Source of the DNA: Dulcicalothrix desertica PCC 7102
GTDB taxonomy: Bacteria; Cyanobacteriota; Cyanobacteriia; Cyanobacteriales; Nostocaceae
Length of the DNA stretch: 64,000 nt
Reading direction: 5' to 3'
Assembly: GCF_003991905.1 (NCBI RefSeq)
Contig: NZ_RSCL01000010.1
Coordinates: 248,001 to 312,000 of the forward strand
The notes under the pieces were generated by a model. The model worked only from the letters and a program-made list of their open reading frames with translations, searched no databases and was not told where the DNA came from. A program made the position numbers and the translations under genes. Below, in pieces: positions 3,835 to 57,977 of the stretch (positions are counted from its first letter, which is position 1; each line of letters begins with the position of its first letter).

Positions 3835-3879
3835 CTTACAAACCTCAACCTCTTCTATAATTATTCCGTATTTCTAATA

Positions 3880-3951
3880 CTCCCCAGGCAGGATTCGAAC
3901 CTGCGACCAATCGGTTAACAGCCGACCGCTCTACCACTGAGCTACTGAGGA
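3880..3951 (-). tRNA. tRNA-Asn (GUU)
   Basis: The complementary strand folds into a full cloverleaf: acceptor TCCTCAG with CTGGGGA, D arm GCTC/GAGC, anticodon arm GTCGG-CTGTTAA-CCGAT giving anticodon GUU, and T arm GCAGG-TTCGAAT-CCTGC. The discriminator base is G and CCA is not encoded. 72 nt. This tRNA could be the cognate of the T-box-like leader at 56.4-56.6 kb if that leader reads asparagine. Confidence 0.95.
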
Positions 3952-4114
3952 ATGTGGCGCACAATTAATAATAGTAGAGGTAAAGTTTAAAAATGGCAAG
4001 TGTTTTTGAAAATTTTTTTTGCTTTTTCTGATTTTTTCTTGAAAGCCTTACAAATAAAGCATTTCAGACGTTGTAATCATGAGTATTAATTGACTATATA
4101 ATTATCTAAAAGCA

Positions 4115-55521: not shown

Positions 55522-56334
55522 ATGGATTCTTCCCACCTTAACTTTTCAAATCAAAATTTGCAAAATCGCTCGTTTAAAGGACTTAATTTGAATGGCGCCA
55601 ACTTTAGCGGTGCGGATATTCGCGGATGTGATTTTAGTAATGCACAGTTAAAAGATGTTAATTTGACAGGAGCCAAGATTGGTCAATCGCCAAGGGTTTT
55701 TGTTTTTGTGCTAACGATTGCGTGTGTAGTAGCTATTATTACGTTTAAAGCAGTCAGTGAAATGTCGTTTGGTGTACTTGGACGCACTCCTGAAGAGTCA
55801 GCCTGGTCTTACAGTGTAGCTTTGTTTGTTAGTTTGGGTATAGCTGGGTTGTGCGCTAGTTTAAAGCGTATTATTAAAGAAAATTCTATTTTTTACCGTT
55901 TGACTACAATTATATCCGGCGCCGCTTCTGGAGCTTTACTTGGGTTTTATTATGGTGGTAGTAGTCAAGGTAATAATCCTCAAATTGCGGTGATATCGGC
56001 AGTTTTCGCATCTTTGGTTATGGCATTTGTATGCTTTAAATTTAAAACTGGGTTTGTACGGGTTGTGGTTGCGGTTACTGGTTGTATTACAAATTATGGG
56101 TTTGCTTTTTTACTTAGTAGTTTGGCGTTTGCCTTTCTAAGTATTCCAAATATTTTATTAGGAAGTATTTTTATATGTCTGACTTTATTTGCTACTGCAT
56201 CAACTATGTTTTGTTTGCTACAGGCAGTTAAAGAAATTACTAGTGTTGGTGTTACATCATTTAAAGGCGCCGATTTATCTAATGCTAAATTTGATGAGTC
56301 GGTTTGCAACGGATATAACGGATGTAACGGATGA
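55522..56334 (+). CDS. Pentapeptide-repeat membrane protein
   Basis: 270 residues. Residues ~10-55 hold about eight A(N/D)LxX-type pentapeptide repeats (LNGANFSGADIRGCDFSNAQ), then four to six membrane helices, then two more repeats (FKGADLSNAKFDE). The protein ends SVCNGYNGCNG, encoded by GGATATAACGGATGTAACGGATGA, i.e. the interspersed nonamer has become the C-terminus. Membrane protein of unknown role. Confidence 0.78.
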   Translation: MDSSHLNFSNQNLQNRSFKGLNLNGANFSGADIRGCDFSNAQLKDVNLTGAKIGQSPRVFVFVLTIACVVAIITFKAVSEMSFGVLGRTPEESAWSYSVALFVSLGIAGLCASLKRIIKENSIFYRLTTIISGAASGALLGFYYGGSSQGNNPQIAVISAVFASLVMAFVCFKFKTGFVRVVVAVTGCITNYGFAFLLSSLAFAFLSIPNILLGSIFICLTLFATASTMFCLLQAVKEITSVGVTSFKGADLSNAKFDESVCNGYNGCNG

Positions 56335-56377
56335 GTTATTTGTCACGTTGCAATGTTTTTAGATTTTATGTAGTATG

Positions 56378-56620
56378 GTTGTAACTCGTGGAAGAGGAAA
56401 GACCCCTCTGAGAGGTTTACTCGAAAAGGAAATGTTAATTAAGATGGTTAGCATTGGCGATTAGTAGGGTAAAACGTATGTGCAACGAGACTGCAACAAG
56501 GTGTCATGTTCATGGTGTGCTGACTTGAAGTTAACAGTGCGCGGGATGTGGAAGCTGGATGGTACCGCCGTTAATACGGTTCCAGCGAGTAAAACTTAAC
56601 CCATATAAGGGTTTTTTGTC
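56378..56620 (+). promoter_or_regulatory. Candidate T-box riboswitch leader upstream of the aspartyl-tRNA synthetase-like gene
   Basis: At 56554-56586 lies GCTGGA-TGGTACC-GCCGT-TAAT-ACGGT-TCCAGC: helix A1 (6 bp), the 7-base bulge TGGTACC, helix A2 (5 bp) and loop. This is the T-box antiterminator plan; TGGNACCGC is its most conserved stretch and the TGGN pairs with NCCA of an uncharged tRNA (tRNA-Asn/Asp end G-CCA, a U-G wobble). A hairpin AACCC/GGGTT with a T run (56598-56617) follows, which also contains the only ribosome site, AGGG, nine bases before the ATG. Upstream, CTCGT (56385) pairs with ACGAG (56485) and an 8-bp hairpin (56432-56454) sits inside, as a stem I should; a specifier is not certain (AAC at 56473 or GAT at 56459). 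Confidence 0.65.
56598..56617 (+). terminator. Terminator/sequestering hairpin of the T-box-like leader
   Basis: AACCC-ATATAA-GGGTT plus TTTT, ending three bases before the synthetase ATG. It can end transcription or hide AGGG, the likely Shine-Dalgarno. Confidence 0.6.
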
Positions 56621-57916
56621 ATGGTACTTTGCTCAAAAAGATTTATTGCTTCGTTGGAAGCGTCGTTAACTGAAGTAGTTGTGATTTGTGGATGGATACT
56701 GCATCTGCGAGAACTTGCTCGTACTACATTTATTGTCGTCAAGGATTGTAGTGGTCAAGTGCAATGTGTTGTAGCTTCTGAGTTGGTGCGAGACTTGAAG
56801 CTCAAGCTCGATGAACCTTTGGAAATAAGAGGTAAAATCAAGCCCGATAAACGAGCTAAACTTGGTTTTGAGTTAGAAGTTATTGAGATTAATGTTCTTA
56901 ATCAAGTATCTATACTGCCTTTTAATTCCAGTTCAGATATTTCTGATATTGGTATCGAAACTATCTTGGCTTACCGTCCGTTGTCGCTGCGTCATAGTGA
57001 GATAGGTGATATTTTTCGGATACAAGCAGCTATTTTGCAATACTTTCGGCAATTTTTAGGCGCCAGATATTTTACTGAAATAGTCACATCCAAGATAGTA
57101 TCTAGCGGAACTGAGGGTGGAACTAATTTGTTTGAAATCAAATATTTTGAACGTCTAGCATACCTTGCTCAAAGTCCGCAGTTTTACAAAGAGTATGGTG
57201 TTTCAGGTTTAGAGCGAGTGTTTGAGACTGGTTACGTTTATCGTGCAGAACCTCACGCAAGTAGTAGACATTTGACGGAATATTACTCTTTAGATTTGGA
57301 AATGGGGTTTATTAACAGTGCTGAAGAAGTAATTGAGTTAGAACGAGAGCTACTAACGTTTATTTTTGAGCAGTTGAACCAAAACTTCGCAGACCAACTT
57401 AAACATTACAGAACAAAATTACTTCCCTCAATGTTGAATGTACCCACTTGGGAATTTACAGAATGTTTGAAACTACTTAATCATCACTTTGGTCGTAACG
57501 ACCTTATTGACGACCTAGACCCAGAAGCTGAACGTCAACTTTGTCAGCTAGCGGAAGCCGAAACAGGAGTCGCAGCGCTGTTTGTAATTGGTTTTCCTTT
57601 ATCTGCAAGACCTTTTTACACATACCCGCGTGGTCATGAAGGCGCCTCACAAAGTTTTGACTTATTATTTGAAGGCATTGAAATTACAACAGGTGGGAAA
57701 AGATTACACAAACGCGAAGATTTAAAACAATCCTTAACAAATCGTAATCTCAATCCCGCCTCATTTGAAAATCATTTACAAATGTTTGAACTAGGAATGC
57801 CACCACATGGAGGACTAGCAATTGGTTTAGAACGTTTAACTTCCCGAATCTTAAATCTACCCAACGTTCGACAAGCATCGCTTTACCCACGCGACAGGTA
57901 TCGAATCACACCATAA
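56621..57916 (+). CDS. Archaeal-type (non-discriminating-like) aspartyl-tRNA synthetase
   Basis: 431 residues, matching archaeal AspRS (~430-440) rather than the ~590-residue bacterial AspRS. OB-fold anticodon domain (VVICGWILHLRELARTTFIV), class II motifs: TEGGTNLFEIKYFERLAYLAQSP (with insertion-free start), motif 2 YRAEPHASSRHLTEYY, motif 3 GLAIGLERLTSRILN and the end PRDRYRITP. The bacterial GAD insertion is missing. Archaeal AspRS and the AspRS2 set often charge both tRNA-Asp and tRNA-Asn with Asp, the latter then amidated by GatCAB; this is inference here. Preceded by a T-box-like leader, so it may respond to uncharged tRNA-Asn or tRNA-Asp. Likely acquired horizontally, with its regulator. 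Confidence 0.88.
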   Translation: MVLCSKRFIASLEASLTEVVVICGWILHLRELARTTFIVVKDCSGQVQCVVASELVRDLKLKLDEPLEIRGKIKPDKRAKLGFELEVIEINVLNQVSILPFNSSSDISDIGIETILAYRPLSLRHSEIGDIFRIQAAILQYFRQFLGARYFTEIVTSKIVSSGTEGGTNLFEIKYFERLAYLAQSPQFYKEYGVSGLERVFETGYVYRAEPHASSRHLTEYYSLDLEMGFINSAEEVIELERELLTFIFEQLNQNFADQLKHYRTKLLPSMLNVPTWEFTECLKLLNHHFGRNDLIDDLDPEAERQLCQLAEAETGVAALFVIGFPLSARPFYTYPRGHEGASQSFDLLFEGIEITTGGKRLHKREDLKQSLTNRNLNPASFENHLQMFELGMPPHGGLAIGLERLTSRILNLPNVRQASLYPRDRYRITP

Positions 57917-57917
57917 A

Positions 57918-57977
57918 AGTGCTGAGTTATGAGTGCTGAGTGCTGAGTTTGGAATAATACTCAGCACTCAGCACTTT
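57918..57977. repeat. Inverted heptamer repeats between convergent genes
   Basis: AAAGTGCTGAG..GAGTGCTGAGTGCTGAG faces CTCAGCACTCAGCACTTT. The two arms pair and would act as a bidirectional terminator for the synthetase gene and the convergent lysozyme-like gene. Confidence 0.8.

Follow-up and report, generated by a model that had tools for sequence, protein, structure and literature searches.

What controls an archaeal-type aspartyl-tRNA synthetase gene in a cyanobacterium, and which tRNA would its leader read? The question arises at a locus in a 64,000-nucleotide stretch of the Dulcicalothrix desertica PCC 7102 genome (hereafter, the window), where an initial annotation placed a T-box-type riboswitch in front of such a gene. 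T-boxes are known mainly from Gram-positive bacteria. The annotation held that none had been described in cyanobacteria, and the consulted portions of two older surveys agree: one counts zero T-boxes in 13 cyanobacterial genomes (PMC2494555) and the other likewise gives none in the group (PMC3766115). According to excerpts of the article on the TBDB database, its class II model was used on Actinobacteria and on T-boxes with a truncated Stem I that the class I model had found, and cyanobacteria do not appear in the excerpted main text (PMC7778990). A search of titles and abstract openings in one open literature collection also found no report of a cyanobacterial T-box. By its anatomy, the leader at 56383-56586 upstream of aspS2 is a T-box riboswitch (Table 1). 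We consider it very probable that it is a T-box with an ultrashort Stem I that would sense uncharged tRNA-Asp and turn on a spare archaeal-type AspRS (AspRS2).

Table 1. Features of the aspS2 leader and gene, in window positions.
Feature	Position	Strand	Details and basis
Candidate -10 box	56371-56376	+	TAGTAT; offset conservation
Stem I, ultrashort	56383-56417	+	K-turn hairpin, 35 nt; covariation and row-by-row audit
Stem I, C-stem	56383-56387/56412-56417	+	
Stem I, K-turn	56391-56392/56410-56411	+	GA/GA
Stem I, upper stem	56394-56397/56405-56408	+	
Stem I, loop	56398-56404	+	AAAGACC, 7 nt
Proposed Asp specifier	56401-56403	+	GAC; kept in 16/16 leaders
Stem II	56418-56471	+	S-turn GAA 56423-56425 / AGTA 56463-56466
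Stem IIA/B pseudoknot	56475-56495	+	CGT/ACG 56475-56477/56485-56487 crossed by TGCA/TGCA 56481-56484/56492-56495; covariation alignment
Stem III with flanks	56499-56553	+	Helix 56504-56508/56547-56551; RRRxG = AGGTG 56499-56503; AA 56552-56553
Antiterminator/antisequestrator	56554-56586	+	A1, T-box bulge, A2; covariation, folding, audit
A1 and A1'	56554-56559 and 56581-56586	+	GCTGGA and TCCAGC
T-box bulge	56560-56566	+	TGGTACC, 7 nt; A2 from 56567
Terminator-like hairpin	56598-56613	+	AACCC/GGGTT; T run to 56617; covers AAGGG 56607-56611, a possible Shine-Dalgarno (SD) sequence
aspS2, archaeal-type aspartate--tRNA(Asn) ligase	56621-57916	+	431 aa; NF003483, 467.3 bits (cut-off 353)

The Infernal search proposed in the initial annotation returned a match to the Rfam T-box model (RF00230) at 56380-56587, with 38.4 bits (E 1.2e-6) against a gathering score of 93. 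The match spans the whole model (positions 1-219), and 5 nt of the leader stand for 74 model positions of upper Stem I. The score falls under the cut-off because upper Stem I is absent. This score is marginal and alone would not settle the identity of the leader as a T-box. In a ten-locus batch, RF00230 reported L001-L004 and L023 and gave no report for the window's own copy (L015), L021, L022, L024, and L026; in another batch L010 and L014 went unreported and L013 reached 64.3 bits. Of the 12 genomes with aspS2, a sensitive RF00230 genome scan detected its leader in all but G200 (11/12). Scans of a phylum sample (0/386 genomes matched) and of relatives (4/60) both missed the window's own genome and therefore lend little weight to absence. 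One further Rfam match of 30 bits (L105) lies mostly within two open reading frames, has no TGGNACC in the stretch inspected, and looks false.

The alignment of relatives is more informative. After removal of duplicates, 16 leaders were compared: six from the window's genus (the window and five Calothrix), six from other members of the family (Nostocaceae), including Brasilonema, and one each from Oscillatoria sp. CS-180, a member of the Pleurocapsales, and metagenome-assembled genomes (MAGs) of Oligoflexia and Chlorobiota. RNAalifold, run without the T-box plan as input, recovered that plan with 33 pairs, 15 of which had changed on both sides. When the pseudoknot was written in, the structure comprised 36 pairs, and 98.4% of the cells across the 16 leaders were paired. 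The 15 doubly changed pairs compare with a mean of 5.3 in shuffled alignments and 1-3 in slid controls, and the covariation score of 0.292 with 0.170 in shuffles and at most 0.080 in slid versions. Furthermore, a covariance model built from ten leaders, leaving out the window's genus (R2), scored the window leader at 152.3 bits. Thus, the Infernal match, the covariation among relatives, and R2 all support the annotated T-box before a cyanobacterial gene for an archaeal-type AspRS; the alignment that had been suggested as a check contained both a conserved TGGNACC and compensatory changes, and in its sequence part did not refute the assignment. An ordinary leader with a terminator could resemble a T-box by chance or convergence, as the Rfam score below the cut-off, the leaders missed in larger batches, and the false-looking 30-bit match might suggest. 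The covariation and its controls contradict such a resemblance, as do the R2 score and the conservation that reaches the Oligoflexia and Chlorobiota MAGs, and we give it a negligible probability.

The T-box in the window has a Stem I that lacks the apical tRNA-elbow-binding domain, a class II-type trait. The row-by-row audit found the loop ANAGACC, with its GAC, and tandem GA on both strands of the K-turn in all 16 leaders. Stem I by itself folds no better than its shuffles (z -0.40). The initial annotation had closed Stem I with CTCGT/ACGAG (56385-56389/56485-56489), a pairing that we rejected as the base of the stem: it is not kept in relatives (HK-06, FI2-JRJ7, and NIES-4105 read CTCAT and ACGAT), and its 56485-56487 segment forms part of the IIA/B pseudoknot. 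Its two candidate specifiers gave way as well to the GAC of the Stem I loop, which is the triplet in the specifier place. GAT (56459-56461) adjoins the S-turn strand, just 5' of it, and AAC (56473-56475) sits at the edge of the pseudoknot. GAC stands six bases before a conserved GAG, and the same GAC-N6-GAG spacing recurs in the long T-boxes before AspRS2 in Paraclostridium, Acetoanaerobium, and Nonomuraea (triplets by eye). Because GAC, an Asp codon, occupies the specifier place, the cognate of the leader is likely tRNA-Asp rather than tRNA-Asn.

A T-box sensing tRNA-Asn through AAC 56473 or another triplet is what a non-discriminating type of AspRS would suggest. The family model of the gene is named aspartate--tRNA(Asn) ligase, and the window encodes a tRNA-Asn (3879-3952, minus strand) with, by eye, the U1-A72 pair described as required for GatCAB in the consulted part of PMC4206432. 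T-box control of tRNA-dependent amidation has reportedly been described for C. acetobutylicum. These points are opposed by the GAC that fills the Stem I loop in every leader and the specifier place of the long T-boxes before AspRS2, and by the position of 56473-56475 at the pseudoknot edge, so that we regard sensing of tRNA-Asn as very unlikely.

Downstream of Stem I, the remaining elements of the proposed tRNA-Asp sensor are in place. The Stem II helix (56418-56422/56467-56471) shows changes on both sides in 5/5 pairs, and the GAA and AGTA strands of its S-turn are each present in 15 of the 16 leaders. All leaders have RRRxG before and AA after Stem III, a motif that, with the other audited features, is listed for T-boxes in the consulted part of a review (PMC7583486). 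We located the antiterminator, with A1, the TGGTACC bulge, and A2, exactly where the initial annotation had drawn it. It folds with an energy of -13.4 kcal/mol, which 2 of 200 shuffles equal. A G-U wobble closes A2 (56567/56580) and is present in 13/16 leaders, while TGGNACC lies between A1 and A2 in 15/16, the window included; the Pleurocapsales leader has a 2-nt alignment gap in the bulge.

The variable position of the bulge would face the discriminator base of the tRNA. Twelve genomes each gave one match to tRNA-Asp(GUC), ending in G73 by eye, with a pattern that allowed up to 3 mismatches and could miss a divergent copy. The TGGC of G080, G109, and G200 is a full Watson-Crick match to G73; in the window's genus, G024, G220, and G028 the motif reads TGGT, which makes only a G-U wobble with it. 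The tRNA-Asn of the window also ends in G73 by eye, in agreement with the annotation. The first 18 nt of the gene (56621-56638, ATGGTACTTTGCTCAAAA) do not vary among the six members of the window's genus. They contain a GGTAC complementary to the GTACC of the bulge, a possible contact with the start codon.

A scan of 56200-56800 for sigma-70 promoters found none. TANNNT stands exactly 6 nt before Stem I in 16/16 leaders (the next best offset has 5/16), and because this spacing is fixed the transcript probably begins at or just before Stem I. By analogy with the known T-box mechanism, from which we infer tRNA binding, the direction of control, and the physiological role, transcription would start just before Stem I and the Stem I loop would offer GAC to the GUC anticodon of tRNA-Asp, a contact that Stem II and the IIA/B pseudoknot would brace. 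The TGGN bulge of the antiterminator would then pair with the free NCCA end of the uncharged tRNA, and the antiterminator thus stabilized would allow aspS2 to be expressed. Charged tRNA-Asp would leave it unstabilized and aspS2 expression low.

How the sensor would act on the gene apparently differs among hosts, with several output designs on one sensor. The initial annotation proposed a terminator or SD-sequestering hairpin after the antiterminator. The hairpin and its T run are there, at about -5 kcal/mol. All six leaders of the window's genus keep the hairpin, its loop varying from 4 to 6 nt, but in none of them does it overlap the antiterminator, so that a switch of either kind would be no more than a candidate in this window. 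A competing helix is not conserved within the genus (shuffle p 0.028 for the window and 0.29-0.89 for the other five), and the free minimum-energy fold of each of the six leaders contains the antiterminator. The six family leaders outside the genus have an alternative pairing, in which the antiterminator-closing strand of A2/A1 can form a helix with sequence immediately upstream of the ATG (shuffle p 0.008, 0.124, 0.324, 0.056, 0.004, and 0.012). In these six, the pre-ATG helix is the free minimum-energy fold and excludes the antiterminator; enforcing A1 costs 0.6 to 8.5 kcal/mol. A competing helix had shuffle p values of 0.10-0.49 in the Oscillatoria, Pleurocapsales, Oligoflexia, and Chlorobiota leaders. 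The Pleurocapsales leader has a hairpin with TTTTT (-12.1 kcal/mol) that shares 4 nt with A1. The script that detected it returned no U-tailed hairpin for the leaders of Oscillatoria, Oligoflexia, and Chlorobiota or for 4/6 of the other family leaders; in G024 and G220 it returned one that is clear of the antiterminator.

The leader of the window's genus might instead be the relic of a T-box, its sensor conserved and its switch decayed, with aspS2 constitutive or otherwise controlled. The missing conserved competing helix, the antiterminator in the free fold of all six leaders, and a TGGT that only wobbles with G73 speak for such decay. Yet the sensor motifs are intact in all six leaders, which measure 207-209 nt and are alike by eye, and TGGT also occurs in the T-box before the AspRS2 of Acetoanaerobium. 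We therefore consider decay improbable and retain the reading of the leader as a working sensor of tRNA-Asp.

In ileS T-boxes the specifier likewise sits in a hairpin loop. Structurally closest to the aspS2 leader are the ileS T-boxes of Nocardia farcinica and Mycobacterium tuberculosis, described in the consulted parts of PMC7583486 and PMC10651847 as translational and with a short Stem I. The aspS2 leader and these ileS T-boxes alike have a short K-turn Stem I without an apical tRNA-elbow-binding domain, the Stem II S-turn, the IIA/B pseudoknot, RRRxG-Stem III-AA, the TGGN bulge, and the A2 G-U wobble, and the competing pre-ATG helix of the six relatives is a further likeness. The aspS2 leader differs from them in its Asp rather than Ile triplet, in its occurrence in Cyanobacteria, Oligoflexia, and Chlorobiota rather than Actinobacteria, and in the U-tailed hairpin that overlaps A1 in the Pleurocapsales.

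T-boxes are also found before AspRS2 in Clostridia (Paraclostridium, L040, 118 bits; Acetoanaerobium, L041, 107 bits) and in Nonomuraea (L042, 63.5 bits). They precede the same type of enzyme and share the GAC, but have a long Stem I, and the enzymes are only 39-44% identical to that of the window. The Paraclostridium leader, before a plasmid-borne aspS (L040 1088-1313), is followed by a possible second antiterminator at 1398-1428 (23.8 bits, E 0.3). In Rhodococcus, the AspRS2 leader (L043, about 1330-1520) appears by eye to have an ultrashort Stem I whose loop contains GAC; also by eye, CACCTCC could pair with GGAGGTG and would thereby hide the SD sequence. No model recovered this leader whole, including a second covariance model of the aspS2 leader (R1) run with filters off, and its Stem I folds no better than shuffles.

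As the initial annotation stated, the gene directly downstream encodes an archaeal-type AspRS. Its 431-aa reading frame scores above the NF003483 cut-off, and all 16 leaders precede an AspRS2 of this type. The 12 family genomes with aspS2 all encode a bacterial AspRS (12/12) and an AsnRS (12/12) above curated cut-offs. Because these ordinary enzymes are also present, AspRS2 is an extra, or spare, synthetase. In Deinococcus and Thermus, an extra AspRS and GatCAB make asparagine on tRNA-Asn, according to the consulted part of PMC4206432. A T-box would be a sensible means of withholding a spare enzyme, one that may be error-prone, until tRNA-Asp is uncharged. Just after aspS2, the window contains repeats of GTGCTGAGT and inverted copies of it (57917-57977, by eye).

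Gene and leader occur together in relatives, a pairing that, like the covariation and the conserved GAC, is read from the sequences themselves. The family contains aspS2 in 12 of 217 genomes, and R1 found the leader in 12 of 208, the same 12 that carry the gene. As all 12 were in the R1 training set, the informative results are that nothing else matched and that the leaders adjoin aspS2. A contig search with the AspRS2 protein gave ten loci, and a scan of the phylum sample found aspS2 in 2 of 386 genomes, the window's and G274 (L027, 41% identity), with no T-box match in the latter. The same aspS2 T-box is present in the Oligoflexia MAG (L013 3825-3988) and the Chlorobiota MAG (L014 3790-3959), both outside the groups with T-boxes in the consulted portions of the surveys. 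In a tree of 26 rows, the 16 AspRS2 proteins with the leader form one group (support 100/100), with the Oligoflexia, Chlorobiota, and FI2-JRJ7 rows coming from MAGs. Because this one group spans three phyla, the tree hints at joint transfer of gene and leader.

Tentatively, and with some doubt, AspRS2 may be a mobile cassette that carries its own ultrashort Asp T-box across Cyanobacteria, Oligoflexia, and Chlorobiota and whose sensor works by transcription termination in certain hosts, namely the Pleurocapsales and perhaps the window's genus. If so, an ultrashort sensor would control termination, although as a rule transcriptional T-boxes need a long Stem I. The locus would extend direct tRNA sensing to photosynthetic bacteria through an ultrashort Stem I that bears an Asp triplet, and offer a natural test of the minimal size of a tRNA-decoding RNA and of the movement of such switches between phyla with their gene. 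A scan of viral sequences with the Stem I pattern returned 0 stretches; the T-box pattern returned 37, two of which R1 matched, the better with 17.4 bits (L072). Two records of uncultured phages (L046 and L047, about 635 and 642 kb) each encode an archaeal-type AspRS, and neither R1 nor Rfam found a T-box near these genes.

A second T-box, above the Rfam cut-off, is present in 7 of 208 family genomes (L001 1501-1800, L097, L098, L099, L102, L103, and L104). The gene that follows it in L001 is IleRS-like by NCBIfam, with similar reading frames by eye at L097, L098, L099, L102, and L104. Unlike the aspS2 leader, these T-boxes exceed the Rfam cut-off, have a long Stem I (seen in the L001 alignment), and read AUC in 4/7. 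Automatic annotation of them may already exist.
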